In this document: piece by piece, positions 1,278 through 18,448 of the stretch
How positions within the stretch are numbered: position 1 is the first letter of the stretch
How the letters are laid out: the number at the start of each line of letters is the position of its first letter
DNA from: a virus
Virus record (IMG/VR): IMGVR_UViG_3300048003_000126
Coordinates: 1-23,319 of that record
Length of the DNA stretch: 23,319 bases
Strand: one strand, 5' to 3'
Notes under the pieces: generated by a model
What the model was told of the DNA's origin: nothing
Seen by the model: the letters and a program-made list of their open reading frames with translations, nothing else
Databases searched by the model: none
Program-made: the position numbers and the translations under genes

Positions 1278-1279
1278 AG

Positions 1280-1891: not shown

Positions 1892-1894
1892 TAA

Positions 1895-1978
1895 TTAGTA
1901 CCCCTTCTTTTTAATCTTAAGTGAGTCTCTCCCACCTTTCTTTTTCTTTTTAATGTTGTAGGCTTTTCCTTGTGGCAT
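1895..1978 (-). CDS. 27-aa lysine-rich microprotein
   Basis: A very short frame starting MPQGKAYNIKKKKKGG and ending KIKKKGY. It lies between the capsid terminator and tail tubular A, 3 nt before the latter's ATG. Similar tiny MPQG..KK proteins are, to my recollection, found beside tail and capsid genes in marine T7-like phages. About half of its residues are Lys or Arg, which suggests nucleic-acid or acidic-protein binding, but the function is unknown. The tight spacing supports translation; it could instead be a leader enhancing translation of tail tubular A. Confidence 0.6.
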   Translation of the reverse strand: MPQGKAYNIKKKKKGGRDSLKIKKKGY

Positions 1979-1983
1979 GATAA

Positions 1984-2020
1984 TAAAAAAAAAAGGGTAT
2001 CTAATAATAAGATACCCTAT
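1984..2020 (-). terminator. Intrinsic terminator after the capsid gene (T-phi position)
   Basis: On the minus strand a perfect 8-bp stem (AGGGTATC at 2011-2018 pairing with GATACCCT at 1994-2001) with a 9-nt loop is followed at once by a run of nine T (A run 1985-1993 on plus). It begins 12 nt after the capsid stop codon. This is the same place as T7's single strong late terminator, T-phi, between gene 10 and gene 11. Partial readthrough would be needed to express the tail genes from an upstream promoter. Confidence 0.88.
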
Positions 2021-2029
2021 AAATTGAAA

Positions 2030-3016
2030 TTAAGAAGCAGATAGCTTAATAGTAGCTGCACATTCTGGTCTTAGGATTCCATGACCAAGAGCATACTTAG
2101 CAACCATTAATGTACCTTGATACATAATTCCGTAGTCAGAACCAGAGATCTCAGTTGTCATATCCATTAGCTTAACTGTACCAACAGCAGACTTATGGAA
2201 GACAAGACCAATAGTTTTACTATCATCACCTGAGTAAGTGTTATTAGCACCACTTGGGTTAGATCCTACGTTTGCTTGAGGTACGTTATTAGACATCATT
2301 ACAGGGATGCCAGCTACTTGTTGTACCTTACCAGAAGCAAACGAACCATTACCTTGTGGGTTAAAGTCAACGTCAACTGTTCTAGTAGCAGATTCAGCAA
2401 GTTTGTAGTACTCAGCAGGTGGTAATACACAGAAACGATCTGTTGGAGGGATGTCTCTCTCGTCAAATGTCTGTGCAATGTCATAGATAGCTGCTGCTAT
2501 CTCATCACCAGTAACATCAGAAGATGCTGTATTACCATTAGCAAGTGTTAATACAAGACCACCATTACCACCTGTAAGAGTAGTAGATGCTCTTGAAGCA
2601 TTTGCTATTTGCTTGGCTACGTTTTGATCGTAAGTACGAGCAAGTGCTTTACCAAGTTCATCAGCGTAAGTTGCCCTTACGTCATAATGATTCTTGAGTT
2701 CATCTATTGAAGCAATGAAACTCTGTGCAATTAAAAGATCATCTATGTTGATAATCTTTTCATTCGCTAAGATCTGGTTTGCTCCTACCAATGGATTTCC
2801 GACCGTATGATAAGCCGCAGTTGCAGTTCCTAAAACAGGAAACTGTGCTGATTTTCCACTTGTAATAGTACGAACTGAATGAAGCTGTTCATTAAAAATG
2901 TTATTTCTGGTGAACGCAGTTAGCACCTCACCTGAGAAAATTTTTAAAAACAGGGCATCAAAGCCTGTTCCACTATTGTTAACCAGACCAAGGCGAGAGG
3001 TAGTGGCGTTAGCCAT
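2030..3016 (-). CDS. Major capsid protein (T7 gp10-like)
   Basis: Main shell protein of the icosahedral head; 328 aa compared with 345 for T7 gp10A. Family-typical stretches include the N-terminal LFLKIFSGEVLTAFTRNNIF, a FPVLGTATAAYHTVGNPLVG segment early in the HK97-like fold, the RATYADELGKALARTYDQNV helix, and DRFCVLPPAEYYKL followed by GIPVMMSNNVPQ. The start ATG at 3016 has a good Shine-Dalgarno (AAGGAG, 8 nt upstream). A 113-nt leader precedes it, containing a hairpin, and a terminator follows directly. I see no gp10B-like frameshift extension, because the terminator hairpin begins 12 nt after the stop. Confidence 0.95.
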   Translation of the reverse strand: MANATTSRLGLVNNSGTGFDALFLKIFSGEVLTAFTRNNIFNEQLHSVRTITSGKSAQFPVLGTATAAYHTVGNPLVGANQILANEKIINIDDLLIAQSFIASIDELKNHYDVRATYADELGKALARTYDQNVAKQIANASRASTTLTGGNGGLVLTLANGNTASSDVTGDEIAAAIYDIAQTFDERDIPPTDRFCVLPPAEYYKLAESATRTVDVDFNPQGNGSFASGKVQQVAGIPVMMSNNVPQANVGSNPSGANNTYSGDDSKTIGLVFHKSAVGTVKLMDMTTEISGSDYGIMYQGTLMVAKYALGHGILRPECAATIKLSAS

Positions 3017-3080
3017 ACGAAAACTCCTTGATTAATGTTTACAAATTTGAGAAACTAACTTTGCTTCAATCCTTTCTCAC

Positions 3081-3107
3081 AAGTGGTATCTGACGCATCA
3101 GGCACTT
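3081..3107 (-). promoter_or_regulatory. Hairpin in the capsid mRNA leader
   Basis: An interrupted inverted repeat lies in the noncoding leader upstream of the capsid gene: an outer 5-bp arm (AAGTG/CACTT, 3081-3085 with 3103-3107) and an inner 4-bp arm (CTGA/TCAG) around a 4-nt loop, with an asymmetric bulge. No U tract follows, so it is not a simple terminator. It could be an RNase processing site or mRNA 5' stabiliser, as found before T7 gene 10. In the same leader, CACTTGTGAG (minus strand) weakly resembles the promoter core at 16708-16732. Function is inferred. Confidence 0.4.
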
Positions 3108-3129
3108 AGATATTTAGATTTCTACTTTG

Positions 3130-3399
3130 TTAAGTTTTTACTGACCCACAATTCCACTTCCTTAAAGCAAGAGATTTGCGAGTTAACTTGCCATCTTTTT
3201 TTAATGGTCCTTTTGACTTAGACATTCTTGCACAAAAAGATTTCCTTCTTGATTTTTGTCTAGCCGAAAGACCTGTCTTCTTAGTAACAGGGGCTTGCAA
3301 GTTTCCACCTGTTGCTTTGTTATATTTCTTACGACCAGAAGCAGTCAGACCCCCTGTCGGGTCTTTGTCCTTCTTGGTAAGAGATACTCCTTTAGACAT
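3130..3399 (-). CDS. Basic 89-aa protein, DUF6321-like
   Basis: Lys/Arg-rich protein of unknown function. It has a conserved-looking order of blocks: LTKKDKDPTGGLTASGRKKYN near the N-terminus, a central ATGGNLQAPVTKK, then RRKSFCARMSKSKGP and a C-terminal LTRKSLALRKWNCG. This matches what I recall as DUF6321 proteins, widespread in marine phages near head genes. Two cysteines in the second half might bind metal or crosslink. It is the last of a run of small basic genes between scaffold and capsid. A nucleic-acid-binding role is only suggested by charge. Confidence 0.8.
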   Translation of the reverse strand: MSKGVSLTKKDKDPTGGLTASGRKKYNKATGGNLQAPVTKKTGLSARQKSRRKSFCARMSKSKGPLKKDGKLTRKSLALRKWNCGSVKT

Positions 3400-3431
3400 A
3401 AAAGATGTAAGCTATTTAAAATATAGCATTA

Positions 3432-3686
3432 TTACGCAATCTTTAAACTATTTCTTTTTTTTCTTCTATGTTGGTAGCTTATCTTTTTTGAACTGGTCTT
3501 AGCTGCTTTAAACCTAGCCTTTTCTTTACTACTCATCTCACCTGTAGTCTTTGGAGTTTTACTACTAACTCTTTTACTAGGTCTGCAAGCAGGGTAAGGT
3601 CTGCCTTTTTCATCCTTTCCTCTACCACAGTCTTTACCTGTTTTGACATCTACCCACTTTTCATCAAACCATCTTTTAAGACTCAT
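3432..3686 (-). CDS. Basic 84-aa protein, DUF5872-like
   Basis: Starts MSLKRWFDEKWVDVKTGKDCGRG, continues with GRPYPACRPSKRVSSKTPKT, and has SKEKARFKAAKTSSKKISYQHRRKK toward the C-terminus. I recognise this arrangement as the DUF5872 type common in marine phages and giant-virus or algal-virus datasets; function unknown. Strongly basic, with two cysteines (DCGRG and ACRPS) that could form a redox or metal pair. Its ATG overlaps the stop of the upstream 50-aa gene (ATGA, 4 nt), implying translational coupling. A 32-nt gap separates it from the next basic gene. Confidence 0.8.
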   Translation of the reverse strand: MSLKRWFDEKWVDVKTGKDCGRGKDEKGRPYPACRPSKRVSSKTPKTTGEMSSKEKARFKAAKTSSKKISYQHRRKKRNSLKIA

Positions 3687-3835
3687 TTACCTACCTGTTT
3701 CTGTGCTTTGTTGTGTGCAGATTTAAATGATGTACCTTCACGCATAAGCTTCTTCATCATGTCCATGTGTTTTTTGGAATGATGTTCTGAATGTTTCTTC
3801 AGAGTTCTCATCTGACTAAGACTAAGCTTTGCCAT
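3683..3835 (-). CDS. 50-aa basic helical microprotein
   Basis: Short frame beginning MAKLSLSQMRTLKKHSEHHS and continuing with a Lys/His/Met-rich helix (KKHMDMMKKLMREG) and a TSFKSAHNKAQKQVGK tail. I recall near-identical layouts among small proteins of marine phages, always unnamed. No catalytic motif is visible; predicted mostly alpha-helical. It overlaps its upstream neighbour by 14 nt and the downstream gene by 4 nt, so it is embedded in a coupled chain of five small genes between scaffold and capsid. The overlaps and codon pattern make it likely real. Confidence 0.72.
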   Translation of the reverse strand: MAKLSLSQMRTLKKHSEHHSKKHMDMMKKLMREGTSFKSAHNKAQKQVGK

Positions 3836-3944
3836 TTTTCTTTTTGTTCTTTAGTTTACGAACTAATAAAAAATCTTCTTTGGTAAGTTTACCATCACCA
3901 GTTTTGTCAAGACTTTTTTTTTGTTTGTCTGATAGTTTTTTCAT
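3822..3944 (-). CDS. 40-aa microprotein with an EF-hand-like loop
   Basis: The frame starts MKKLSDKQKKSLDKTGDGKL. Residues 13-24 (DKTGDGKLTKED) fit the 12-residue EF-hand calcium loop: D13, T15, D17 and D24 as ligands, G18 at the invariant Gly and L20 at the hydrophobic position, followed by a Phe that starts the exiting helix. The last position is Asp rather than the usual Glu. The rest is lysine-rich. A single EF-hand peptide could dimerise or bind Mg2+/Ca2+; whether it does is unknown. It overlaps the 50-aa gene by 14 nt and ends inside it. Confidence 0.68.
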   Translation of the reverse strand: MKKLSDKQKKSLDKTGDGKLTKEDFLLVRKLKNKKKNGKA

Positions 3945-3946
3945 AA

Positions 3947-4093
3947 TTAAGTTTTGCGATAACCTCCACCACGTTTCTTGTAAGTTCTTACAAGCCACGC
4001 ATTAGCATAAGCAGAAGGATATACTCTAAACTTCTTCTTTGCTTCTGATTTTACTCTTGAATACAGTGAAGGGTTTGTAGGTTTGTTAGCCAT
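3947..4093 (-). CDS. 48-aa basic microprotein
   Basis: Begins MANKPTNPSLYSRVKSEAKK and contains KKFRVYPSAYANAWLVRTYKKRGGGYRK. The block F-x-V-YPSAYANAW-x-V-x-x-Y-K-x-RGGGY is one I recall from many marine phage genomes, where it is an unnamed small protein near head or packaging genes. Aromatic and basic residues suggest nucleic-acid contact, but no fold is assigned. The ATG overlaps the scaffold stop by exactly 8 nt (ATGGCTAA), and its own stop is 2 nt before the next ATG, consistent with coupled translation. Confidence 0.75.
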   Translation of the reverse strand: MANKPTNPSLYSRVKSEAKKKFRVYPSAYANAWLVRTYKKRGGGYRKT

Positions 4094-4886
4094 TTCCAAA
4101 TACGTTAGAGCCAGCTAAACGTGATTTAACATTTTCTGTGTAAGCAGAATCTTTTTCCCAACGAGGATCAGACATAGCAGTTACAACTTCTGCTGTTGTT
4201 CTAAATGGTGTAGCACCATTACCAGCAGTACGACCTGAGTAAAGGTCTGGTTCAATTCCCATAGCGTTATTGTATTGTGAATAGATACCTTGAACAGCCA
4301 ACTTAATAGCAGGTCCATCTCCTGTATCAGTTAACTTATTAAAGGATTGGACTTGTTCAGCAGGTAAGTTTTCCATAGCCCACGAAACCATCTTGCCATA
4401 AGTTTCATCACCACCTACTGCATCTTTAATACCTTGAGCATCTACTTCACCTGCCATACCAGCATTACGAAGACCATCTAAATAGGTATCAATAATTTGT
4501 TTTGAGAAACCAGCTTCACCTAGTTTGCTGTAATCATCTTCAGAAATCTCATCATTCTCTTGAAAACGATTTGATATATCTTGAGCATCAATACCAACTT
4601 CTTCTAGTACAGAAGCAAGACCATCTCCATAAAATTCTTCAGCATTAAAGTCAGAATCATTAGTCTCTGTTTCTGTCTCTTCTGTTTGTTCTTCTGCGTT
4701 ACCTTCTGGTTCTTCTCTGGTTTGATCTATAGCTCCAAGCTTACCTTCAAGTTCTTTGTAGCTTCCTACTAAATCTTCTACGCTTTTAAACTTACCAGCG
4801 TATAAACCATTCTCATCTTTTAAACCTTCTAAGTCATTAGCAGACATTGGTGGTGTCTCTGACACATTTACTTGTGATGAAGTCAT
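4086..4886 (-). CDS. Capsid assembly (scaffolding) protein, T7 gp9-like
   Basis: Internal scaffold guiding prohead assembly, lost before DNA packaging. It has 266 aa compared with 307 for T7 gp9. The N-terminal third is highly acidic and low-complexity (EEPEGNAEEQTEETETETND around residues 58-77), then come helical segments and a C-terminal region ending SRLAGSNVFGNG. It lacks enzymatic motifs. Composition and position between portal and capsid support the call. The ATG at 4886 has no Shine-Dalgarno but has AACCACT directly before it. Unlike T7, five small genes separate it from the capsid gene. Confidence 0.88.
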   Translation of the reverse strand: MTSSQVNVSETPPMSANDLEGLKDENGLYAGKFKSVEDLVGSYKELEGKLGAIDQTREEPEGNAEEQTEETETETNDSDFNAEEFYGDGLASVLEEVGIDAQDISNRFQENDEISEDDYSKLGEAGFSKQIIDTYLDGLRNAGMAGEVDAQGIKDAVGGDETYGKMVSWAMENLPAEQVQSFNKLTDTGDGPAIKLAVQGIYSQYNNAMGIEPDLYSGRTAGNGATPFRTTAEVVTAMSDPRWEKDSAYTENVKSRLAGSNVFGNG

Positions 4887-4899
4887 AGTGGTTTTTTAT

Positions 4900-5055
4900 T
4901 TAACTATAGTGAATTGTACTGCCATGTCTAGTAGTAACGTCACCAGACTTCTTAGGTACAGGGTTTTTTTCGTTAACTCCTAGTTCGCTAACGATAGCTT
5001 TAGCAGAGATAAACTTTCCGTCTTCATCTCTTTCTCTAGACTTCTTGTTGGGCAT
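4900..5055 (-). CDS. 51-aa small protein between portal and scaffold
   Basis: The best start is the ATG at 5055, giving MPNKKSRERDEDGKFISAKA and ending in a THR..GSTIHYS-like tail. It is preceded by GGAGG 7 nt upstream, inside the end of the portal gene (20-nt overlap). A longer in-frame version to 5112 exists but has no supporting site. The hydrophilic, charged protein has no recognised domain. T7 has small gene 8-9 neighbours of no known function; similar short proteins occur beside marine podovirus portal genes as I recall. Function unknown. Confidence 0.65.
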   Translation of the reverse strand: MPNKKSRERDEDGKFISAKAIVSELGVNEKNPVPKKSGDVTTRHGSTIHYS

Positions 5056-6628
5056 TAGGTTCCTCCATTGGTTGTTGTGAAGCTGCTGCATCAGATAATT
5101 TTTTAGGATCAACTAAAGGTGAGCCTAAAGCAGCAGGTCCAAGACTTTGAATAAGTTGCTGCTGTTGTGCAGCTTCTTGTTCTGCTTGGATTTGATCTTG
5201 TGTTTTTACTAGGTTAGCAGTATCTATACCAATACTGGTAGCAAGACGTTTGACCGCTTCATCCACATTAACGTACTGTCTCATTACATCTGGCCCTAAA
5301 GCTTGAGCTACAGTTCCAATAAACTCAATCAGTTTGTTCTTATCATTACCTCTACCAAGACCTGATAAACCTGTCACTATCTTAGGTGTTATCAAATCAT
5401 CAGGCAGCTTTGGTACTTTACCTTGCCTTACTAATATGTGCATCCTACGTCTGAGGTATGGTAGTTGAAACTCTTGAGTCAAGATACTATAGATACCACC
5501 AAGACTATTTTCTAGCTCTTGTGCCATAAGATTTATCTCTGCTGCTGTTACTCTTTCTGCGTCACGTTGTACTGATCTAGCCATCAGGAAAGCAAACTCA
5601 AGTCTTGCTTCTATTCTTTGTATCGCACTAAAAGCAACAGAAAAATCTGCACTCTTACCTACTTGCATTACAGAAATATCAGTAGCAAGTCCTTCTCTCA
5701 CCGCACCATTCGGTGCTTTGCTTATGGTCGCTGCTCTTGTGACGCCATTTGGATTTACCAGAAATAAAGTTTTCGCAGAAGCAGCAGCCCCTTCGATTAT
5801 CGCTTGCATCAAAGACTCAAGACTGATTAAGTCTCCTCTGTATTCTTCTACATATCCTCTTCCGTAATCTTCTCCATCAATCCGAATGAACCTGAGAGGT
5901 AGCCAAGGTGTTACATCTATTCTTGATCTGCCATCTGTATTTGGTATCTTTTCTCCTTTACATTCTTGAAACCAGAAGACATCATCATTAACTCTTTTGA
6001 TGTGTGTATATATATCAAGATCATTCTCCATTGTCTTGGCATCATAGTTCTCTTTCTTCTTGATCTGTTCTAAGAAAGCAGCAGGTAAAGCTTGAGGATG
6101 TATTGTTTCTTTAGTTAATATCTCTAATACATTTCCTACTTCATCACGCTTACAAACAAACTTGGATAGTGGATATACCTTTAGTCCTTTTTCTGTCAGG
6201 TAGAGAAGAACATTACCTGATACAACTAAATGTTTGATAGCTTCAAACATAGCAACTCTGTCATTAGATATTTCTATCTGATTCATCAAAGCATTTTCTA
6301 TAGTGCGTAGTCCTTTATCTATCTCACTTTGCATTTGTTCTTGCCCTTGCTTTCTTATCTCAAGGTCATCTATTTCTAATTTAAAAAATGCTGTGCTTGG
6401 TGGCAGCAACGTCATTAATAATTTATTCGATAAGGAATTAACGCCACGACTACCAGTAGCTTGGAAGGGTGTTTTGATCCTTGCCCTTGTACCAGATGTT
6501 TGTTCTGGTATCAAGCTAGGTATCGTTAGCTTTGAAGACTCCTTTGCTTCTCTATCATAGACAGACCTACTACTAACAAGTGCTTCGTACCTACCTGCTG
6601 CGGTTGTACCTTGTGTCGAGTATTCCAT
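5036..6628 (-). CDS. Portal (head-tail connector) protein, T7 gp8-like
   Basis: Dodecameric DNA entry channel at one capsid vertex, partner of terminase during packaging and of the tail adaptor. Length 530 aa is close to T7 gp8 (536). Family features: N-terminal RYEALVSSRSVYDREAKESS, then GSRGVNSLSNKLLMTLLPP, the SGNVLLYL strand, PLRFIRIDGEDYGRGYVEEY in the stem region, and RDAERVTAAEINLMAQELE before a Gln-rich C-terminus. The start ATG at 6628 lies 1 nt past the stop of the preceding proline-rich gene. No Shine-Dalgarno is evident. Highly confident by motifs and synteny. Confidence 0.95.
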   Translation of the reverse strand: MEYSTQGTTAAGRYEALVSSRSVYDREAKESSKLTIPSLIPEQTSGTRARIKTPFQATGSRGVNSLSNKLLMTLLPPSTAFFKLEIDDLEIRKQGQEQMQSEIDKGLRTIENALMNQIEISNDRVAMFEAIKHLVVSGNVLLYLTEKGLKVYPLSKFVCKRDEVGNVLEILTKETIHPQALPAAFLEQIKKKENYDAKTMENDLDIYTHIKRVNDDVFWFQECKGEKIPNTDGRSRIDVTPWLPLRFIRIDGEDYGRGYVEEYRGDLISLESLMQAIIEGAAASAKTLFLVNPNGVTRAATISKAPNGAVREGLATDISVMQVGKSADFSVAFSAIQRIEARLEFAFLMARSVQRDAERVTAAEINLMAQELENSLGGIYSILTQEFQLPYLRRRMHILVRQGKVPKLPDDLITPKIVTGLSGLGRGNDKNKLIEFIGTVAQALGPDVMRQYVNVDEAVKRLATSIGIDTANLVKTQDQIQAEQEAAQQQQLIQSLGPAALGSPLVDPKKLSDAAASQQPMEEPNAQQEV

Positions 6629-6629
6629 A

Positions 6630-6842
6630 TTAAGTTGGGTAGTTTAAATCTCCACCTTTACTACCATCAAGCAATGGTATTTGTAATGACCTAGTTCCTA
6701 GCTTTCTGCCCATTGTTATTTGTTTAGATTCTTTCTTCTTTTGCTTACCAACACTAACTGCATCAGCAGTATCTTCTATAGGAGAATCAACAGGTTCGGG
6801 TGCAGGTGCAGGTGGGGGTGATGGTCGTGATCCTAAACACAT
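6630..6842 (-). CDS. 70-aa proline-rich MC-x-G protein
   Basis: Starts MCLGSRPSPPPAPAPEPVDS and ends QIPLLDGSKGGDLNYPT. The proline-rich N-terminus after a Met-Cys-x-Gly start is a form I recall from small genes just before the portal in T7-like marine phages. The cysteine at position 2 resembles a lipidation or crosslinking residue, but there is no signal peptide. Its C-terminal GRKLGTRSLQIPL may be an assembly tag. It shares its N-terminal style with the next gene upstream (6894-7133), suggesting relatedness. Function unknown. Confidence 0.7.
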   Translation of the reverse strand: MCLGSRPSPPPAPAPEPVDSPIEDTADAVSVGKQKKKESKQITMGRKLGTRSLQIPLLDGSKGGDLNYPT

Positions 6843-6893
6843 GGCAGGTGTATATTATTTTTTTCTTATACTAGCATGAACCAAACAAATGGC

Positions 6894-7133
6894 TTAAAAC
6901 CCTAGAGGATTTTTGCCTGTTAATCTTTTACCTGCTAATTTTTCTCCTATTATAGTATTTGGATTTTTATATATATTATCACGTTGTTGTCTTTTAATTT
7001 TTAATTCTTCAGTAACTTTTTTTGTATCTTTAGGATTTTCAACATCAATCTGCTCGCCTGTAACAATAGCGGCATCATCACGTTTTTTATATTTTGCAAC
7101 TTGACGTTGACCACCACCACCACCAATACACAT
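6894..7133 (-). CDS. 79-aa MC-x-GGG protein upstream of the portal
   Basis: Begins MCIGGGGGQRQVAKYKKRDD and ends GEKLAGKRLTGKNPLGF. Same Met-Cys-x-Gly opening and basic C-terminal Gly/Lys tail as its neighbour at 6630-6842. The middle (VTEELKIKRQQRDNIYK) is predicted helical or coiled coil. A Shine-Dalgarno GGAG lies 9 nt before the ATG, within the end of the preceding gene. A 51-nt AT-rich gap separates it from the next gene. Probably a virion or assembly accessory protein given its place in the portal operon; this is inference. Confidence 0.7.
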   Translation of the reverse strand: MCIGGGGGQRQVAKYKKRDDAAIVTGEQIDVENPKDTKKVTEELKIKRQQRDNIYKNPNTIIGEKLAGKRLTGKNPLGF

Positions 7134-7135
7134 AG

Positions 7136-7330
7136 CTAGTTCTCCAATAGTCTGTTGTTTAACATAGTTTCTTTCTGTCTTTTCTGCTGTTCTATTAGAT
7201 AGTTAACAACAGATCTTTCCCCTGCACGATACCATACTTCTCGATCAGTAAACGATAAGTCTGGGTGTCTATCAGGAAACACACTACTTAAACTGTTTAT
7301 AAGTTCGTCAGTAATTACTGGTAAATTCAC
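7136..7330 (-). CDS. 64-aa first gene of the late operon
   Basis: Small protein with GTG start at 7330 (no ATG is available in frame near it), reading MNLPVITDELINSLSSVFPD and containing DREVWYRAGERSVVNYLIEQQ. The FPDRHPDL..TDRE-x-WY-x-AG-x-RSVV-x-x-L pattern is one I recall in a small protein placed before the portal in marine T7-like phages. Helical, no enzyme motif. It is the first gene after the terminator at 7410-7450, so its upstream region should hold a late promoter. No clear Shine-Dalgarno precedes the GTG, so the start is moderately certain. Confidence 0.75.
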   Translation of the reverse strand: MNLPVITDELINSLSSVFPDRHPDLSFTDREVWYRAGERSVVNYLIEQQKRQKETMLNNRLLEN

Positions 7331-7409
7331 AGAGATAAAAGTGTTATATCTATTTTATATGTTATCGTACTGATAGCAAGGAGTGGTTACCTTGTTGCAC
7401 AGAAAAATG
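7331..7409 (-). promoter_or_regulatory. Candidate late promoter region
   Basis: This is the only gap between the replication-module terminator and the portal operon, so a promoter is expected. On the minus strand it holds TTGCTATCAG followed by GATAACATATAAAAT, which could be sigma-70-like (TTGCTA and TATAAA, but spaced only 14 nt). It also holds a 5-bp inverted repeat CAAGG/CCTTG (7377-7394) around AACCACT. ACCACT also occurs in the capsid leader. I cannot decide between a host-type and a phage-polymerase promoter. Confidence 0.4.
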
Positions 7410-7450
7410 AAAAAGACTCTAGGTGAGTGGTTCCATCTAGAGTTTTTTTT
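7410..7450 (-). terminator. Intrinsic terminator after the exonuclease gene
   Basis: A 7-bp stem, CTAGAGT with ACTCTAG (7437-7443 and 7416-7422), encloses a 14-nt loop. On the minus strand it is followed by a C and five T (plus-strand A run 7410-7414), and A8 precedes it, so it could work in both directions. The exonuclease stop codon lies within the A run. It closes the replication module. Confidence 0.8.
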
Positions 7451-8183
7451 ATGGCTGCCAAAGTTTTACTTCACCTGTGCTGTAGTTGTAGTCTCCTTCT
7501 CGTAGTATTCTTGTGAGTCTTGCATTGAGAATAGCATCAGCAATACTGTAACCTTTCTTTGTATATGTCTCCTGTACCTTAGACCATAGTGCATCTCTAG
7601 TATCTGGTGTATCAGCTAGTGTCTTGGAAGCAGTAACCATACCCATACCTTTAAGACCTGCGATACCATCACCTGAGTCACCAGCTAGTGACATCTCAAA
7701 CCAATGCCTGTCTGCTTTCTTCTCTGTTATATGTAAGATCTCATCTTCTTGTATTAACTTACAAGGTATAGTCTTCATGTCTTTATCTACTGAGACTATG
7801 ATTGGATTTTTATACTGACCATTGGTAGCCAGCAACCCAAGGACATCATCTCCTTCAAGGTTTGGATAGGCAGCAGATTCATATTCATTCTTTATTTTTT
7901 TAATAATACTTTTAAGTGCTAGTGGTTTTCGTTTACCTATCCTGTTAAGTTTGTACTCAGGAAATATCTCATGTCGAAATGTAGGGTAAGAAGTAAAGCA
8001 CATAACTACATCATGCTTGTCTTCTGCTATTTGTTTATATACATCTAACCTGCTTTCAATCAGATTCATAATATCTCTTTCATCAGAGTGAAGAGTATGT
8101 TGCCAATCATTCCATCTTGTATCTACTTCACAAGCACAACAAGAAGAATAGACTAGCCAATCGGCATCAATTAATAAAGTCAT
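7449..8183 (-). CDS. 5'-3' exonuclease (T7 gp6-like, FEN family)
   Basis: Removes RNA primers and degrades host DNA in T7-like replication. The 244-aa protein has the FEN/PIN-type order: N-terminal LLIDADWLVYSS (first metal-binding Asp), YPTFRHEIFPEYKLNR arch region, LEGDDVLG (acidic metal ligands near residue 109-113), SVDKDMKTIPC, and AGDSGDGIAGLKGMG, the helix-hairpin-helix DNA-binding part with two further Asp. All expected acidic residues appear present. The ATG overlaps the primase-helicase stop by 4 nt (ATGA). In T7 the DNA polymerase gene lies between these two; here it does not. Confidence 0.93.
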   Translation of the reverse strand: MTLLIDADWLVYSSCCACEVDTRWNDWQHTLHSDERDIMNLIESRLDVYKQIAEDKHDVVMCFTSYPTFRHEIFPEYKLNRIGKRKPLALKSIIKKIKNEYESAAYPNLEGDDVLGLLATNGQYKNPIIVSVDKDMKTIPCKLIQEDEILHITEKKADRHWFEMSLAGDSGDGIAGLKGMGMVTASKTLADTPDTRDALWSKVQETYTKKGYSIADAILNARLTRILREGDYNYSTGEVKLWQP

Positions 8184-9793
8184 AGGTCAGCAAAGTCATT
8201 TTCATATACGATTAATCGACCTGTCTTCTGGTCGTATAATAATTTATCTACCTCACCTGTCATCCCTGTATGTCTAGACTTGAGTACCTTTAGCTGTAAT
8301 CGTTGTCTCTCACTAGCATCCCCTGTCTGGTTTCTGGAAGCCGAGAGTACAACATCTGATAGTTGAAGTAGTGAATGAGATCCTCTCAAGTCTGAAGTAT
8401 CAACCTCCCTGCCTGACTCATGTGATTGTCCTTGTGGTCTTCGTAAGTGACTGACCAATACAAGAGCTATACCTGTGGCTTCACATAAACTTCTTAGCTT
8501 GGTCATTATAATATCTATTGCTTTACGTTCATTGTCTAACTCTAAGCCTGACAAAACTATACTGATGTGGTCAAGGATTACTACCTGCACTCCATCTACT
8601 GTTGCTAGGTATCTGATCTGTTCTAGTAGTACATCAGGTTCAAGACTACCGAAATGGTTGTAAAGAAAAAGACTGCGACTTGACGTTAGTTTGTCAAATG
8701 CAGTCTTCAGACTAATTTTATCTATGCCATCCTCATCTAAATGCAAAGGCACATTCATGTCAATACCTACCAGACCTTGAAGAGTTCTTTGTACTGATTC
8801 TTCTAGTCCTATATAACCTACCTTCAATCCTCTCTTAAGAAAGTGATAGCAGAACTCCCTGCAAATTGTGGACTTACCTGCCCCACTTGCAGAAGCTACT
8901 GTGAATAGTTGGCTAGGAAATAAACCTCTTGTAAAATCATTTAGTTTTGGAAAGGGAAAGTCTGTAACAGCTTTGCTTGTTTCTTTAGTAAACAAATCCC
9001 AAGCATCAGCCGCATTGATTAAGCAGTCAGGTCTTACTGGTCTAGCCTTCCATAATCTTTCTTGTACTACATCTCCTTCACCTAGTACAAGATGATCGTT
9101 GACATCATTACGATCTAACCTAGCTATTGCAACCTTACCTTTGGGTAAGACTTCCATGCACTTCTCTGCTGCTTTATTACCTGCTTCATCGTTATCAAAG
9201 CATAAGACTATACGACAATAAGTATCTAACCATTTGTAGTTTGCTGCTAAATACTTAGCTGCTGATTGTACCCCTGATGGTATTGATATACAGGGAAACT
9301 TGTTGCCTTGTATTTGAGATCCACTCATGCAATCAATTTCGCCCTCGAAGCAACTAACAAATACAGATCCATTGCTGCCATGTTGTCGCCATAAGTGTTG
9401 ACCCCATAGCTGTACGTTAGACATCTCACCTATCCAGATAAACTTCTTATCTTGAAAGCGTATATGTTGTGCTACATCTCTACCCTTTTGGTCTTTGTAT
9501 GTAGCAACTTGAACAGGTTGTCCTCTGTATTCTGCCTGTCCATATCCAAATAGTTCGCAAGTCTCCTTAGTGATTCCACGTTTAGGTAAAGCTATAGGTG
9601 TAACCTTCAATAGTTTTGGATTTGTTTTCTTTAATGGAATAATGTTACTCACTTTCTTTTCTTTGGTTTTGTTTGGGTAATAGGTGTATTCGCAATCCAT
9701 AGTGAAGCAATGTTCATGTCCATCATCAAAGACTGCACAGTTCTTCTTGCCACACTCAGGGCAAACTTTCTTTAACTTATATTTGCTAGTCAT
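8180..9793 (-). CDS. DNA primase-helicase (T7 gp4-like)
   Basis: Bifunctional replisome enzyme: primes and unwinds at the fork. The chosen ATG at 9793 gives 537 aa beginning MTSKYKLKKVCPEC; it overlaps the upstream stop by 8 nt (ATGACTAG). A 14-codon longer form is possible. Zinc-binding cysteines C11, C14, C29 and C34; TOPRIM residues EGEID near 150-154 and DNDEAG near 200-205; helicase Walker A SGAGKST near 303-309; Walker B VVILDH; then a SHLRRPQG segment followed by the arginine-finger region. T7 gp4 is 566 aa, so the protein is full length with both halves intact. Its retention without a visible DNA polymerase is notable. Confidence 0.95.
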   Translation of the reverse strand: MTSKYKLKKVCPECGKKNCAVFDDGHEHCFTMDCEYTYYPNKTKEKKVSNIIPLKKTNPKLLKVTPIALPKRGITKETCELFGYGQAEYRGQPVQVATYKDQKGRDVAQHIRFQDKKFIWIGEMSNVQLWGQHLWRQHGSNGSVFVSCFEGEIDCMSGSQIQGNKFPCISIPSGVQSAAKYLAANYKWLDTYCRIVLCFDNDEAGNKAAEKCMEVLPKGKVAIARLDRNDVNDHLVLGEGDVVQERLWKARPVRPDCLINAADAWDLFTKETSKAVTDFPFPKLNDFTRGLFPSQLFTVASASGAGKSTICREFCYHFLKRGLKVGYIGLEESVQRTLQGLVGIDMNVPLHLDEDGIDKISLKTAFDKLTSSRSLFLYNHFGSLEPDVLLEQIRYLATVDGVQVVILDHISIVLSGLELDNERKAIDIIMTKLRSLCEATGIALVLVSHLRRPQGQSHESGREVDTSDLRGSHSLLQLSDVVLSASRNQTGDASERQRLQLKVLKSRHTGMTGEVDKLLYDQKTGRLIVYENDFADL

Positions 9794-10070
9794 AGTACCA
9801 GTTGTAGGTGAACTCTTTAATAGGAAAACTAACATTACCGATACACATTTTTCTATGTGACCTTACAATTTTTTCTGCTGATTTTCTATCAAGACTGTTA
9901 AATAAATACTGACTTCTTTCCCATTGTGTTTGATAATGACGATTGGCTTTTACTACGTCATCAAACCAACTTCCAAGAAACCATACATATAAGACAGATG
10001 ATCTTGTGTTGTACCAGTAGTCACCTTCATCAGCATTAGGTGGTTGACTAACATTACAAAGTTGAGCCAT
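9786..10070 (-). CDS. 94-aa protein with a PPN-x-D-x-G ... W-x-D-V motif
   Basis: Not recognised as a named family. The N-terminal third (SQPPNADEGDYWYNTRSSVL, then YVWFLGSWFDDV) resembles short Gly/Trp motifs of the type 'GD-x-W-x-N ... LYVW ... W-x-D-V' that I know from phage structural proteins. The rest is basic and helical (NRHYQTQWERSQYLF, KSAEKIVRSHRKM). The stop overlaps the primase-helicase ATG by 8 nt, and its own ATG overlaps the upstream gene by 17 nt. The neighbour 10054-10215 has the same motif, so the two look like diverged paralogues within the replication module. Confidence 0.72.
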   Translation of the reverse strand: MAQLCNVSQPPNADEGDYWYNTRSSVLYVWFLGSWFDDVVKANRHYQTQWERSQYLFNSLDRKSAEKIVRSHRKMCIGNVSFPIKEFTYNWYYD

Positions 10071-10215
10071 GATCTATTTCGTTTAAGTTGCAGTTGTGTT
10101 CTTTAAGGTTTACATCTACCCATTCTTTGCCAGTAAATACTATCCACATATTTCTATGGTCATCAAATACTACACAACCTATGTCTGGGTTCGGTGGTAA
10201 AGGAAAGCTAGGCAT
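10054..10215 (-). CDS. 53-aa protein, paralogue of the 94-aa neighbour
   Basis: The ATG at 10215 is preferred because it overlaps the endonuclease I stop by exactly 8 nt (ATGCCTAG), the pattern seen at five other junctions here; a longer frame reaches 10278. The product starts MPSFPLPPNPDIGCVVFDDH and continues NMWIVFTGKEWVDV. Compared with 9786-10070, both have PPN-x-D-x-G, then about 15 residues with alternating hydrophobics, then W-x-D-V. This looks like a small beta hairpin unit. Function unknown; placement between endonuclease I and primase-helicase is where T7 carries lysozyme gene 3.5, which I do not see here. Confidence 0.68.
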   Translation of the reverse strand: MPSFPLPPNPDIGCVVFDDHRNMWIVFTGKEWVDVNLKEHNCNLNEIDHGSTL

Positions 10216-10621
10216 ACCATTCAGTAGGAATAAATTTATCGCAGTAGAGAAACCCATGTCTCTCACACCATTTGGCATAAGAGATAGAGTTCTTTGCTTT
10301 GGTTAGTTTGGTCTTGCTATTTTGAAAACAAAACCTGATGTCTAGTTCGGGTCTAGTCTTCTTAATAACAAGATGTTTTCTTCTGTCCTCACTTGAGAAG
10401 TAACCCTTAGTTTCACAATAGAAATCATTAAGGATAAAGTCTGGTCTGTAGCTGTAACTAATTGTGTAGTCAATGCTGATAGTTTCATAAGTAAATTTTA
10501 TTTTCTTTTTGTGTAAACTGTCGGCAAAAGCAGCTTCAAACTTACTCTTGTATTTAGAAGTCGGCTGCTGTGGCAGTCGCTTTTTCTTCGTAGCTCGTTG
10601 GCTCTGCTGTCTCGAAGTCAC
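10208..10621 (-). CDS. Endonuclease I (T7 gp3-like Holliday junction resolvase)
   Basis: Cleaves branched DNA and helps break down host DNA. The catalytic set fits T7 gp3: Glu in SKFEAAFADSL, Asp in YRPDFIL, and the E-x-K of CETKGYF. It is followed by the family segments SSEDRRKHLVIKKTRPELDI and LTKAKNSISYAKWCERHGF. There is no ATG; GTG at 10621, 8 nt after a GGAGG, gives 137 aa, while GTG at 10636 would add five residues. T7 gp3 is 149 aa. It overlaps the end of the SSB gene by 68 nt in another frame, a long overlap for this genome. Confidence 0.93.
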   Translation of the reverse strand: MTSRQQSQRATKKKRLPQQPTSKYKSKFEAAFADSLHKKKIKFTYETISIDYTISYSYRPDFILNDFYCETKGYFSSEDRRKHLVIKKTRPELDIRFCFQNSKTKLTKAKNSISYAKWCERHGFLYCDKFIPTEWYA

Positions 10622-11213
10622 TTGCTCCACCTCCACCTGTAAAGGGAACTATATTTCTAAAGCAAATACTTAATGGCATACATCTAATACCCACACCATT
10701 ACCACCTGCGTTATATCCAGAAGCCAAGAAAGATACTTGTCCTTCTGTCTCTGGACTTATCTTCTCCATCTGTAATCTTTCATCCTCATTCATAAGGACT
10801 ACTTGACCGCTTTGTTCTTCAGTCTTATAGAAAGCAACAGGTGTATTGATACCCTTCATGCCTTTATAATTTTTCTTTAGTCTGATAACTAAATCACTCT
10901 CCTCGAATGACCAAGGGAAAGATGGTTGTCCTGTCTTTGAACTCTTAGTTAAACTAAAAGATCTATCAGGGAAAGCAGCTTTCAGTTGACCCTTCCATAT
11001 CTCTAGTAATCCTTCTAGTTCTTCAATGATATAAGCAGTAGCTTCTACCATCTTGCCTTCTTTGTTCTTCATCATTGACCCTACTGGTATCAATGCTTCT
11101 GTCTTCCACTTCTGTTCACCCATATACTCATCAGGTGTTACTAAATAAGAGTAACGAAAGCGAGTTCCTACAGGAGTGACTAACTTAATAGTCTCCGACT
11201 TTATGTTGTCCAT
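10554..11213 (-). CDS. Single-stranded DNA-binding protein (T7 gp2.5-like)
   Basis: Coats ssDNA at the fork and contacts helicase (and in T7 the polymerase) through its C-terminal tail. At 219 aa it is close to T7 gp2.5 (232). Features: an OB-like N-terminal body beginning MDNIKSETIKLVTPVGTRFR, aromatic-rich RFRYSYLVTPDEY, and a C-terminal tail with acidic residues ending in Phe (ADF), the hallmark of gp2.5 and bacterial SSB. First gene after a 70-nt gap containing a promoter-like -10 and a palindrome. AAGG lies 7 nt before the ATG. The match is by position, length and tail, so slightly less sure than its neighbours. Confidence 0.85.
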   Translation of the reverse strand: MDNIKSETIKLVTPVGTRFRYSYLVTPDEYMGEQKWKTEALIPVGSMMKNKEGKMVEATAYIIEELEGLLEIWKGQLKAAFPDRSFSLTKSSKTGQPSFPWSFEESDLVIRLKKNYKGMKGINTPVAFYKTEEQSGQVVLMNEDERLQMEKISPETEGQVSFLASGYNAGGNGVGIRCMPLSICFRNIVPFTGGGGASDFETAEPTSYEEKATATAADF

Positions 11214-11283: not shown

Positions 11284-13680
11284 TTAAGTAAATATATATG
11301 GTGCGTTCAACACATCAGTAATATCAAACTCCCCCATGCGTAGTGCCTTGGGTAAATCCTTTGTCTCACTCAGTTGTTGTACTGCCTGATGGTATAGATT
11401 ATCTAAATTATTATCACTATAAATATCATAGAAACTTTGCTTAACACATTGGATTAAAGTTTCTAATTCACTAGCTGGACTACCATAGCAATCGTGGATA
11501 ATACAGAATTGATCTAGTCCTTTCTTACTGGCAGCAACCAAACTTAAATGGCAATGAGCAGCGTCAAGACTATGGATATAATTACTAGGAAAACCTTGAT
11601 GTTGTTTTCTTTTATCTACCTTAGTCTTATCTGTTTCAGCTAGGTTTAAATATATAGTTGAGTTACTTATCTTGCTCTTGATTCTTTTACTTTGATTTAC
11701 ATAATAGTTTTGTTCGATAAGAAAACCTGATGGGCTATGCCAACGTATAGGTTTATTCTCTTTGTTAAAGCAGCGAGCAATAGTAGCTAAGTGTTTTAAA
11801 AGCAAAGGACTCTCAGGGGTTACAGCCTTTACCGAATGTTGAATCATGTGTGCTAAGTAAAAATTGTTCTGAAAATTTTTTGCCATTGAAATGTTTTCGT
11901 TTACAAAATATCTTTCTATGTAGTTAGCTATCCCGAATGTTGTTGAGTTATAAGGAACCATAAGCACAGGTTTCTTTATAAACTTTCTGGTTAACTTGTC
12001 CTTTACCTCAAGCCATTCTTTAGCTTCTGGTTTATCATCTTTCTCTAATTCTTTGAGTAAAACTTCTAAGATTTGTGCATATAAATCTTGTGGTTTATTT
12101 ACATTCTGCAAGTTAACTTTATTAGCTAGATGTTGGTTGCCTGTAAGACCTGCTATATGTTGATAGCCATTGTTCGTACCATCAAGACAGCATACATGAT
12201 GAGATACATAACCCCATCCATCTCTTTGAAACTCAGCCCACTCTCGACACCACCCAAGGAACATGAATGGTTCTTTCGCTTTACCCCATAGATCTACATG
12301 AGCAATAGGGTCATCATATATTTGTAGAGCTATATCAGTACCAGCAATGTAAGCCCACTCCAATCTATCTTCGTAGGATTCTTTATTAAGACCCCAATGA
12401 TTAGCACCAGCTATAGCCAACCAGTTAAGTTGTTTCTTGTTATTAATAGCAGCACCCTTATGAAATATATGTAGCCCTCTAGCTATGTCATTACCTTGTG
12501 GATGAAAGTGTGCAGTAACAGGGTACATCCTACCTGTCCAATCAAATTGATATACATGAAAGAACTTTTCATCAGTATATTTTTGTGCTGTATCTATCAT
12601 TGAAAGTATTTGATAGCGTTTGCTTTTATTGTGTGCGTTCATATCATGTATAAGAGAAGCTAAGTATCTCCATTCCTTTCTGCTATCTGGATTTGTGTCT
12701 ATATCTAATGGTTTTGTAGGCAGTTCAGCTAGTTCTCTATCAATCAATGAACCTACTTCTATTCTTTCTTCCCAACAATACACAAGAATTTCAAGCACAA
12801 ATTTGTTTACAGTCCAAGCAGTTTGACTCGCCAGAGTTAACGCTTTCAGACTTGTTGATAAGTTTTCTTCTTGTAATCTCTTTATCGAATCTCGATCAGT
12901 CGTCTTGATTGCTCTAGTCTGTAGTCTCTTTGTATAATATCCTCCATCATTAATAGAAGTCCAAGGTCTAGGCTTATCGAAGCATGGTTGTAGTAGTGGG
13001 TAGGCAGCAATACGATTAGATCTTCCTTTTCTTATGTACTCCATAAAGACTTCAGTAAAAATAATATGTGAGACAGTAGTATTCTTAATCCTTTTATTAA
13101 TTATCTTGACCATACCTATCTTGGTCATGGTTAGCTCAATAAGTTTTAGCCCAACCCTAAGTTTATTAGCCCTAGTCCAAGGCTCAAACTCATGCCCTTT
13201 CTGGTTCATGTGATAGACCATAAGATTTCTTTTATATCTTTCGTGCCTTGTATCATTTGTATGTTTAATAATATTTTTAAAGTGTTTTGGATCTACCTCT
13301 TCAAACTTAGTAAACCTCAGTTCATCCTCTAACATTTGCCCTATCTTTAGTGCAGTTGAAGTTGTTGTTTTAGATTGTGAAGTGCTATCTATTATTACTT
13401 TGAAAGCAATAAAAGATACTACGTCTAAGTCAGGAAACTGAGATAGGAACAAGGCAGATATAGCCTTGACTCCTACCTTGCCAGATAGAGACTCCCATAT
13501 ATGTTTCTGTAGTTCTTTACTTAGTTGTTCAAGACCAGCTTCAATCATGTTGCGAGCATAGTAGTTCTCAGACTCCCTGCCCTTCTCAATGTTTCTGTTT
13601 TGTTTACTGATCTTGTTATAAGCTGAGATGCTACAGATACTTTGCTCTAGCTCTAGTTGTTTCTTACTTGGTTCAATCAT
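11284..13680 (-). CDS. Single-subunit RNA polymerase (T7 gp1-like)
   Basis: Transcribes middle and late phage genes. The start is ATG at 13680, overlapping the integrase stop by 8 nt (ATGATTGA), giving 798 aa; T7 gp1 is 883. Catalytic motifs are complete: motif A FDWTGRMYPV near 379-388 (first catalytic Asp), DGTNNGYQH near 500, motif B RKFIKKPVLMVPYNSTTFG near 565-583 with the Lys and the Tyr that discriminates NTPs, FPSNYIHSLDAAH near 697, and motif C IHDCYGSPA near 728 (second catalytic Asp). The shorter N-terminus suggests a reduced promoter-binding/N-terminal domain. Its promoters in this window are probably like the one at 16708-16732. Confidence 0.96.
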   Translation of the reverse strand: MIEPSKKQLELEQSICSISAYNKISKQNRNIEKGRESENYYARNMIEAGLEQLSKELQKHIWESLSGKVGVKAISALFLSQFPDLDVVSFIAFKVIIDSTSQSKTTTSTALKIGQMLEDELRFTKFEEVDPKHFKNIIKHTNDTRHERYKRNLMVYHMNQKGHEFEPWTRANKLRVGLKLIELTMTKIGMVKIINKRIKNTTVSHIIFTEVFMEYIRKGRSNRIAAYPLLQPCFDKPRPWTSINDGGYYTKRLQTRAIKTTDRDSIKRLQEENLSTSLKALTLASQTAWTVNKFVLEILVYCWEERIEVGSLIDRELAELPTKPLDIDTNPDSRKEWRYLASLIHDMNAHNKSKRYQILSMIDTAQKYTDEKFFHVYQFDWTGRMYPVTAHFHPQGNDIARGLHIFHKGAAINNKKQLNWLAIAGANHWGLNKESYEDRLEWAYIAGTDIALQIYDDPIAHVDLWGKAKEPFMFLGWCREWAEFQRDGWGYVSHHVCCLDGTNNGYQHIAGLTGNQHLANKVNLQNVNKPQDLYAQILEVLLKELEKDDKPEAKEWLEVKDKLTRKFIKKPVLMVPYNSTTFGIANYIERYFVNENISMAKNFQNNFYLAHMIQHSVKAVTPESPLLLKHLATIARCFNKENKPIRWHSPSGFLIEQNYYVNQSKRIKSKISNSTIYLNLAETDKTKVDKRKQHQGFPSNYIHSLDAAHCHLSLVAASKKGLDQFCIIHDCYGSPASELETLIQCVKQSFYDIYSDNNLDNLYHQAVQQLSETKDLPKALRMGEFDITDVLNAPYIFT

Positions 13681-14533
13681 TAAGTACACCCACTACAGAG
13701 TGCAAAGCCTTTGGTGCTAAGTGTGCATAGATCATGGTTGTCTGTATGTCCTCATGCCCTAGCCAATCCTTTACCAGTAGTAAGGGAACTCCTCGTTGTA
13801 CTAATCTTGAAGCACAAGTATGTCTGCATAGGTGCAAGGTATAAAACTTTTTCTTTTCATAACCTAAATCTTTTCTAGCCTTCTGCCATATAGCATTAAG
13901 CCAAGCATAATCAACACCACAAAATACTTTTTCTGTTGGTTTTGCACCATAAGAAAAACATTTTTTCATTATCTTTTGTACTCTATCTGTCATAGGTACA
14001 GCTACAGCTTGATCGTTTTTTCTATCATTAAAATTAATTTGATTGTTTTCAAAGTCAACAAATCTGTTTTCTAGATTCATTAGTTCATTTACTCTGCAAC
14101 CTAAATCAATTAAACATTTAATAATTTCTGCTGCCATCCAAGTGTTTGGATTTTGTTTTGAATAAAGATTATCTAATAAATCTTTCTCCATGTCAGCAGT
14201 AAGAAACTCTACCTTATGTCCTTTCACTCTATGTCTTTTGGGTAGCTTGATCTCTTCTTTAATGTGACCATCAAAGACCATATGTTCCAATACAATTTTA
14301 AGATACCCTCGTTTAGTATTGATGACCGCTTTACTATTCTTCAGTTCATCCCTTAAATAATCCATCATCTTATTAACTACAGGTGTAGTTATTTTATTTA
14401 CAGGCAAGTCTCCAATAGCTTTGATGTTATGTTTCATAGCTATCAAGAAGTTTTGTGCTGAGTCTGTTCCGTTGTAGGTTCTCTTATACACAAGCCTTGC
14501 AGCTTCCGATAAGGTCGGTACTTTAGTTTTCAT
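13673..14533 (-). CDS. int: Tyrosine integrase/recombinase
   Basis: Site-specific recombinase of the phage integrase family, 286 aa. The catalytic set is complete: R147 (LGCRVNEL), a beta-hairpin lysine at about 172 (DRKND), H234-x-x-R237 (LHLCRHTCASRL), H260 (WLGHEDIQTT) and nucleophile Y269 (MIYAHL). The N-terminal part resembles a short core-binding (SAM-like) domain without an arm-binding extension. It lies directly upstream of, and coupled to, the RNA polymerase gene, an arrangement I recall in cyano- and pelagipodoviruses. No repressor gene is recognised and no attP is evident, so real lysogeny is unproven. ATG at 14533 is preceded by GAACCAC. Confidence 0.95.
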   Translation of the reverse strand: MKTKVPTLSEAARLVYKRTYNGTDSAQNFLIAMKHNIKAIGDLPVNKITTPVVNKMMDYLRDELKNSKAVINTKRGYLKIVLEHMVFDGHIKEEIKLPKRHRVKGHKVEFLTADMEKDLLDNLYSKQNPNTWMAAEIIKCLIDLGCRVNELMNLENRFVDFENNQINFNDRKNDQAVAVPMTDRVQKIMKKCFSYGAKPTEKVFCGVDYAWLNAIWQKARKDLGYEKKKFYTLHLCRHTCASRLVQRGVPLLLVKDWLGHEDIQTTMIYAHLAPKALHSVVGVLND

Positions 14534-16707: not shown

Positions 16708-16732
16708 CCCTCTCCTATAGTGCAACCTAATA
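16708..16732 (-). promoter_or_regulatory. T7-like phage RNA polymerase promoter after terL
   Basis: Minus strand reads TATTAGGTTGCACTATAGG and continues AGAGG. The core CACTATAGG is identical to the T7 late promoter consensus from -7 to +2, and five of the ten bases upstream also match. It begins at the terL stop codon (the TAG is part of it) and points toward the early genes. T7 has phiOR, a promoter and replication origin, in the same position near its right end. Function here is inferred from sequence and place. Confidence 0.6.
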
Positions 16733-18448
16733 AGCGTCACTTATGAATCCATCGGTAGATACATTAGAATTTCTTATCTGAACAGGAGACATCCCCATAG
16801 CGGATTGAGAGATCGTGTTATTTAAGAGATCATTCCAATGGTCTGTGTGAATGGATAGTAGTTCATCTTTTCTTTTAGATATATTTAGGTCTTCATTTTG
16901 AGCCATGTAGTCAGTCCAGTAGGCAACTGCACCTGCTAGGGAGTCAACGAGGTCATCATGTACTAGAGAACCTTTATGTCTTGATATTCGAGATAGTTGG
17001 TAGATGAGTTGAAGCTTTAGTCTTCTTTCTGGTGTCTCTTGAGAGTTAGAACGGAAGTCTTTTTCTATTACTTTTTGGTCAATTATTAGTCTATGAGAGT
17101 TCATTACAGGTTCTAGTGTGTCGATTATTCGTAATTCTTTAGTCTTATTGTTCCTTACGTCTTCTAATTGGCATGGATGGAACCGCATTAGGAAAGGTTT
17201 TAGTAGTTCAGCGAACATACCACCACCGAAGTTTTGTTCTACAAGTATGGTATTAATCTTATTCTCTCTAGCAATCTTACTAATCTTCTCTAGAACAGCG
17301 TCAGAATAGCCTCCAGAGAGACCTAAACACTCTGTGACGTATAAATTACCATTAAGCATCTTTACACAGCTTATAGCGGTCTGGTCTTTACCTTTACCAG
17401 AGGGGTCAACGAACATAACGGAGCCTGTATATTCTATGAAGTCTCCGAATTGTTGTGCAGGTCGGTAGAACCTGTCGCCATTGAAGCCTACACATTGCAG
17501 ATCTGTGATTACATATTCGGGAGAGTTAGACCAAATTACTTTTTCTGGTGCAAATTCTTTGTTTATTGGCATTATCACAAGGTCATTTATCTTTAATGGG
17601 TAGCGATCTTGATCTGAGAGTGTTGTATCTAGCTGGAATTGTAAGTTAAAGCCACTACGACCATACGAAGCTTCTCTTTCCATAAGATCCTGTGCTGAGA
17701 ATCTTATAGGGTCTACAGGGTCTTTTGGTTGGGCTATACCATCTGTTAATTCCTTGAGAATTTTAGGGGCAAGTCTATCTCCGTAGTTGTTTTTTAGTTC
17801 TGGGTAACGTGCAGTCCATATTCTTGTTTCATATCCTCTTTCTTCTAGTGTTAAGTACACTGAGTTTTCTACTTGTGGAGTACCTAAGAAAGTAATCCGA
17901 CCATTAGGTTTTAGTATCGCTTCAAATTCTTTTACAGCTTCAGATAGTTTGTCTCTCATGGGTTGAGTAAAAGAATTATTAGGAACTTCTACGTCATCTG
18001 CAATTACTTCGTCTGCCCTAGCTCCTGACATCTGCCCTAGAACCCCTCTAGAAGAACAAGAAGGGGCATGGTCAGCTTGTGCTGGTCTTACATCAAAACT
18101 TACTTTACTGTTTCTCTGGTCGTCACTAGGAATCAATCCAGCAAGTATTGGCATCTCGTTTATAAGACGCATAGTAAAGGTCGTAAAGTTATCGGCTCTG
18201 TCTTTACTGGCAGATACCACTAAGAACTTTAGTTGTGGGTTCATACGAAGTCGCCACACAACGTAAGTAGAGGTAATCCAACTCTTACCTACACCACGAA
18301 ATCCCTGTATGATTTTACGTCTAGCACCATATTGTAGATATTCAGCTATATCTAATTGAACAGGAGTAGGATCTGGTAGGTTTAGATGTCTCCAAGTAAC
18401 GATTAAGAAATATCTAAAGTCTTGTAGTTTTTCTGGTAAAGGTTGCAA
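16727..18448 (-). CDS. Terminase large subunit (T7 gp19-like)
   Basis: ATPase and nuclease that packages DNA into the prohead through the portal; 573 aa compared with 586 for T7 gp19. Walker A FRGVGKSW (residues 50-57), Walker B DEVIADDVE (146-154), coupling motif region FLGTPQ near 192, and the RNase H-like nuclease with MFVDPSGKGKDQTA (first Asp), LVEQNFGGG and a C-terminal VHDDLVDSLAGAVAYWTDYM (last acidic pair). All catalytic parts are present. The start is TTG at 18448: no in-frame ATG occurs before residue 69, and family homology begins at once. A T7-like promoter begins at its stop codon. Confidence 0.95.
   Translation of the reverse strand: MQPLPEKLQDFRYFLIVTWRHLNLPDPTPVQLDIAEYLQYGARRKIIQGFRGVGKSWITSTYVVWRLRMNPQLKFLVVSASKDRADNFTTFTMRLINEMPILAGLIPSDDQRNSKVSFDVRPAQADHAPSCSSRGVLGQMSGARADEVIADDVEVPNNSFTQPMRDKLSEAVKEFEAILKPNGRITFLGTPQVENSVYLTLEERGYETRIWTARYPELKNNYGDRLAPKILKELTDGIAQPKDPVDPIRFSAQDLMEREASYGRSGFNLQFQLDTTLSDQDRYPLKINDLVIMPINKEFAPEKVIWSNSPEYVITDLQCVGFNGDRFYRPAQQFGDFIEYTGSVMFVDPSGKGKDQTAISCVKMLNGNLYVTECLGLSGGYSDAVLEKISKIARENKINTILVEQNFGGGMFAELLKPFLMRFHPCQLEDVRNNKTKELRIIDTLEPVMNSHRLIIDQKVIEKDFRSNSQETPERRLKLQLIYQLSRISRHKGSLVHDDLVDSLAGAVAYWTDYMAQNEDLNISKRKDELLSIHTDHWNDLLNNTISQSAMGMSPVQIRNSNVSTDGFISDAY

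Follow-up and report, generated by a model that had tools for sequence, protein, structure and literature searches.

Which enzyme copies the DNA of a T7-like phage that seems to carry no DNA polymerase gene? The question is raised by a 23,319-base linear contig of a sea-water virus, taken whole from a metagenome (hereafter the window), in which the primase-helicase and exonuclease genes adjoin where polymerase-bearing relatives carry gene 5. Since the contig is linear and of this length, it is a genome fragment. The initial annotation, which had the DNA letters and their open reading frames to go on, proposed either that a host polymerase is used or that the gene has moved into the unseen part of the genome, and pointed to marine T7-like phages that lack it.

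Gene content of the window

The minus strand carries, in T7 order, genes for integrase, RNA polymerase, SSB, endonuclease I, two short ORFs, primase-helicase, exonuclease, portal, scaffold, capsid and tail tube, with the terminase upstream of this block; all coordinates in this section refer to that strand. The tyrosine integrase (13673..14533; PF00589, E=2e-25) is followed by the single-subunit RNA polymerase (11284..13689; PF00940, E=3e-77), which keeps the catalytic and sugar-selecting residues D503, K572, Y580 and D733. The gp2.5-like SSB (10554..11213; PHROG 112, E=2e-8) retains its C-terminal Phe (...TATAADF), and after it come the T7 gp3-like endonuclease I (10208..10636; PF05367, E=2e-36), the T7 gp4-like primase-helicase (8180..9835; PHROG 239, E=7e-157) and the T7 gp6-like 5'-3' exonuclease of 244 aa (7449..8183; PF02739, E=1e-13; PHROG 107, E=3e-48). 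The portal protein (5036..6628) is the first large structural gene past the replication block, and the terminase large subunit (16727..18448; PF22530, E=2e-35) is of T7 type. All five proteins first described as intact (RNA polymerase, SSB, primase-helicase, endonuclease and exonuclease) are present, each being matched by a PFAM or PHROG profile. Because relatives start at 9793 and the first codons of the helicase ORF overlap the upstream ORF, the helicase probably begins at 9793 rather than 9835, which gives 537 aa.

Several smaller features were also recorded. Two short proteins between endonuclease I and helicase (9786-10070 and 10054-10278) share similar Trp/Tyr-rich motifs (GDYWYNT...LGSWFDDV; PDIGCVVFDDHRNMWIVFTGKEWVDV); for the second, there is a weak hit to a virion protein (PHROG 20787, E=0.004), and its homologue in P-SCSP2 is 61% identical. 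Another short protein (14552-14800) contains an NrdR-like zinc ribbon (PF22811, E=1e-8), is 58% identical to its P-SCSP2 counterpart and leaves no room for an ATP-cone. No auxiliary metabolic genes were recognised among the window proteins examined, which represent a 23.3-kb fragment with ~14 kb of the genome outside it, and a tRNA gene, sought as a tRNA-type attachment site, is absent from the window.

Affiliation with the MPP-C cyanopodoviruses

Such marine phages do exist: they are the MPP-C cyanopodoviruses, Prochlorococcus phages published in 2022 as lacking a DNA polymerase (Cai et al., PMC9860041). By its sequence the window is assigned to this type, as a fragment of an MPP-C cyanopodovirus of the P-SCSP2 / Jalkavirus S08C159 group without a DNA polymerase of its own. 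It therefore belongs to a published polymerase-less lineage, and the absence was already known at the clade level. The window shows the T7-like architecture of MPP-C, with its RNA polymerase, primase-helicase, exonuclease and T7-type capsid and terminase. MPP-C genomes measure 37.3-37.9 kb, of which a fragment the size of the window would represent 23.3 kb. The host is presumably Prochlorococcus, by analogy with P-SCSP2.

Comparison with the nearest relatives, as the initial annotation had advised, identified P-SCSP2, MedDCM-OCT-S08-C159 and the 35.1-kb G001 as close, with the same polymerase-less state or the same junction. The P-SCSP2 subgroup (PMC9860041) is collinear with the window from tail tube B to terminase, and likewise has an integrase and no DNA polymerase. 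Identities to P-SCSP2 (helicase 81%, terminase 92%, capsid 95%, portal 80%) indicate separate phages, and the helicase-exonuclease spacing is +2 nt in P-SCSP2 versus -4 nt in the window. The uncultured MedDCM-OCT-S08-C159 (GU943031, Jalkavirus S08C159) is closer (helicase 97%, exonuclease 99%, the same -4 nt junction), but only 10.3 kb of it are known, a stretch that breaks off within the RNA polymerase gene on one side and close to the capsid region on the other. P-SCSP1a, of the P-SCSP1 subgroup, shares with the window the lack of a polymerase, the -4 nt overlap and a helicase tail without terminal Phe, whereas its helicase is 53% identical, no integrase is annotated and its terminase (34498-36240) and replication genes are encoded on different strands; in the window and P-SCSP2 they share a strand. 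The order RNA polymerase, SSB, endonuclease, primase-helicase, exonuclease, portal is common to the window and to P-SSP7, Syn5, P-RSP2, HTVC120P and T7.

In a helicase tree of 74 rows, rooted at the midpoint for drawing only, the polymerase-less rows form one clade (support 100/100) amid polymerase-bearing rows. The window falls within it together with P-SCSP1a and P-SCSP2 (100/100), and on this helicase tree alone it is grouped with these two phages apart from MPP-A, MPP-B and P-RSP2. A single loss of the polymerase would be the simplest reading of this topology and seems likely. Among 80 loci from bacterial genomes we found no second independent polymerase-less T7-like lineage. In the alphaproteobacterial prophage L290, an integrase comes after RNA polymerase, SSB, endonuclease I and helicase, and the 6 kb downstream contain no polymerase, perhaps as a result of a replication block divided by the integration site. 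The loci L241 and L242 (from the bacterium TMED161 MAG) are MPP-C phage contigs binned in a bacterial assembly, likely as bin contamination.

The comparison also bears on the annotation of P-SCSP2 (OM416780.1). Its endonuclease was reported in 2022 as not recognisable (PMC9860041); an unannotated gene at 5209-5628 (plus strand) matches PF05367 at E=6e-37 and is 72% identical to that of the window, indicating that P-SCSP2 does encode endonuclease I and correcting the earlier report. The product of gene 42 in the same phage (35301-36251, plus strand) is an anti-restriction protein of ArdC type (PF08401, E=1e-15; PF18818, E=1e-28); G001 and G002 encode a version of it with 32% identity, but none was seen in the window.

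Search for a DNA polymerase gene

Profiles for polymerase families A, B, protein-primed B and C (PF00476, PF00136, PF03175 and PF07733) found no match in the window, in the complete genomes of P-SCSP2 and P-SCSP1a or in 12 related contigs of 30-38.6 kb, while the family A profile was positive in all four polymerase-bearing controls (P-SSP7, P-RSP2, Syn5 and HTVC120P). The absence first noticed in the window is hence upheld, and the family A and B search that had been suggested extends it to complete relatives. A sensitive hmmsearch, with a custom T7-type polymerase profile against all frames of at least 20 aa, gave a best value of E=0.43 in the window, which is noise, and a polymerase remnant is accordingly rejected; short frames of P-SCSP2, P-SCSP1a and G001 gave noise only, and controls reached E=1e-253 and 7e-167. 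An identifiable DNA polymerase gene, the lack of which is one mark of MPP-C, is absent both from these 23.3 kb and from the near-full relative G001. The phage-encoded family A polymerase of the four-protein T7 replisome (gp4, gp5, gp2.5 and thioredoxin) is lacking in the window.

A phage polymerase too divergent for known profiles, hidden in a long unassigned late gene or a small early gene, was named as a possibility by Cai et al. (PMC9860041), and two long late ORFs are indeed without a confident family match (876 and 1596 aa in P-SCSP2; 844 and 1404 aa in G001). However, these ORFs belong to the late structural genes and are flanked by a gp13/gp14-like pair on one side and the tail fibre on the other, a position occupied in T7 by the internal virion proteins gp15/gp16. 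They are also poorly conserved, with 22-29% identity even between close MPP-C phages, whereas better conservation would be expected of a replicative polymerase. As no polymerase family was found in the short early proteins scanned either, we regard such an enzyme as improbable.

Displacement of the gene into the part of the genome outside the contig is less probable still. The window is linear and shorter (23.3 kb) than complete relatives (37-38 kb), and for its missing ~14 kb the absence is deduced from relatives because that segment itself is unseen. G001 is 91% identical to the window in DNA over 1067-9769 and close in its proteins (SSB 100%, portal 98.5%, exonuclease 97.5%, helicase 95%). 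It spans most of the missing part, with tail tube B, genes at the gp13 and gp14 positions, two long ORFs at the gp15/gp16 position and the tail fibre, but has no polymerase; P-SCSP2 proteins matching this late region include gp13, gp14 and tail-fibre domains. The window helicase, moreover, ends in the form typical of polymerase-less phages (see below). Together with the two complete genomes and the 12 contigs, these data make the supposed move into the unseen part very unlikely, and gene 5 has very probably not been relocated.

An even slighter chance is given to the single-subunit RNA polymerase doubling as a DNA polymerase. A Tyr639 to Phe exchange lets T7 RNA polymerase accept dNTPs, so a small change could suffice, but the window enzyme keeps the corresponding Tyr (Y580) together with its catalytic residues, as do polymerase-bearing relatives, and with the sugar-selecting Tyr retained we rejected this candidate. 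We also rejected a replication protein specific for MPP-C and common to both subgroups. Besides the fast-evolving SSB, the only window protein that occurs in both MPP-C subgroups and is absent from the four polymerase-bearing phages is a DUF6321 protein (3130-3399) encoded among the structural genes.

The helicase-exonuclease junction

The ORFs confirm that the primase-helicase (8180-9835) and exonuclease (7449-8183) overlap by 4 nt, the ATGA at 8180..8183 (minus strand) joining the helicase stop to the exonuclease start at the gene 5 site of polymerase-bearing relatives. We surveyed this junction in 112 related records, of which 110 differ from one another in their first 500 bases. The spacing is -4 nt in 60 and +2 nt in 45, and six records miss one end of the junction; a reading of -165 in L043 is a partial-match artefact, and the sequence itself gives +2. 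None of the 112 has a polymerase match. In polymerase-bearing marine relatives, in contrast, the two genes stand 1.8-3.1 kb apart with gene 5 in the interval; 98 of 117 of these relatives gave a polymerase match, the other 19 being contigs that end within ~650 bases of the helicase. The ATGA overlap is itself ordinary, and its significance is that nothing lies between the two genes. An assembly gap or chimera at 8180, the objection that a metagenome contig invites and that had been named at the outset, has a negligible probability. It is ruled out for the clade, since some 105 related records show the adjacency, as do the isolate genomes P-SCSP1a and P-SCSP2.

C-terminal tails of helicase and SSB

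In T7, the acidic tail of the helicase and its terminal Phe are needed for binding of the DNA polymerase (PMC12230644; PMC12593628). T7 gp4 ends STDWSNDTDF, with the final Phe at residue 566, and the helicases of P-SSP7, Syn5, P-RSP2 and HTVC120P likewise end in Asp-Phe, unlike the window, whose last ten helicase residues (IVYENDFADL, codons 8183..8212, minus strand) finish in NDFADL without terminal Phe. The proposed check of the polymerase-contact surface thus gave a divided answer: the helicase tail is altered and does not have the acidic, aromatic-ended form, and the SSB tail is unchanged (...AADF). The same division runs through the relatives. A terminal helicase Phe occurs in 0/109 polymerase-less tails versus 110/110 near relatives with a polymerase, whereas the SSB ends in Phe in every case counted in the two groups (82/82 and 107/107). 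Polymerase-less helicases always end in L, I or D (109/109; DL, EL, KL, AL, GL, EDFI, FGD or FFGEKL), and the mean net charge of their last 20 residues is -1.1, against -3.0 in the polymerase-bearing group. Cai et al. (PMC9860041) do not mention C-terminal residues; the loss of the docking Phe from the helicase of the polymerase-less lineage is new here.

Some care is needed in reading these counts. The hundred polymerase-less tails represent roughly one event because the group is a single lineage. The -4 nt ATGA overlap requires the last helicase codon to end in A and so excludes Phe, the codons of which never do; the group with a +2 nt gap is free of this constraint, yet also lacks the terminal Phe. 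A broader collection of polymerase-bearing sequences forms 75 clusters at 70% identity, 7 of which have helicases without a terminal aromatic residue, including a SAR11 prophage clade ending NFDE, so that a perfect helicase-tail rule is rejected and the link between tail and polymerase loss is suggestive only. The change fits the loss of a polymerase partner, from which it may well have followed, without proving it or naming a host polymerase. The loci L253, L256, L258-L266 and L288 (SAR11 genomes and one alphaproteobacterial) are polymerase-bearing and T7-like with helicases ending FDE, DFE or FDG, and are natural exceptions to the T7 docking rule.

Replication without a phage DNA polymerase

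We favour, with a probability of about 0.8, an MPP-C-type phage whose ancestor would have lost gene 5 from between primase-helicase and exonuclease, probably once. Its own proteins would then unwind the DNA, make primers, coat single strands and resect ends, while synthesis would be left to a host polymerase, either the Pol III holoenzyme or Pol I. The primase-helicase keeps its zinc-binding cysteines, Toprim acids and Walker A residues, which are invariant across relatives, and unwinding and priming are therefore predicted to work. MPP-C isolates grow on Prochlorococcus MED4 (PMC9860041), hence their genomes are replicated without a polymerase gene. Among the two options first offered, a borrowed host polymerase is accordingly the most likely, as we infer it, and a moved gene is very unlikely.

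No conserved sliding-clamp-binding motif in SSB, helicase, exonuclease or endonuclease is common to the three MPP-C phages compared, and therefore no recruitment route to Pol III is visible. Tentatively, and at less than even odds, the loss of the polymerase may have been accompanied by that of the helicase docking C-terminus with the SSB tail kept. Such phages would run a split replisome, in which the helicase-primase is uncoupled from the polymerase at this contact and the host polymerase is recruited otherwise, perhaps via the tail of the SSB or simply by primed ends.

Implications

The absence of the polymerase is published at the clade level and is not new here. Added are the assignment of the window, a measure of how widespread the junction is, evidence that excludes relocation to the extent that relatives permit, the contrast between helicase and SSB tails and the corrected endonuclease I of P-SCSP2. 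In surface waters, 43.5% of cyanopodovirus reads come from MPP-C phages (PMC9860041). The tail contrast makes the question of how MPP-C DNA is copied directly accessible to a binding test, and the lineage escapes entirely from surveys in which these phages are counted through the DNA polymerase gene.
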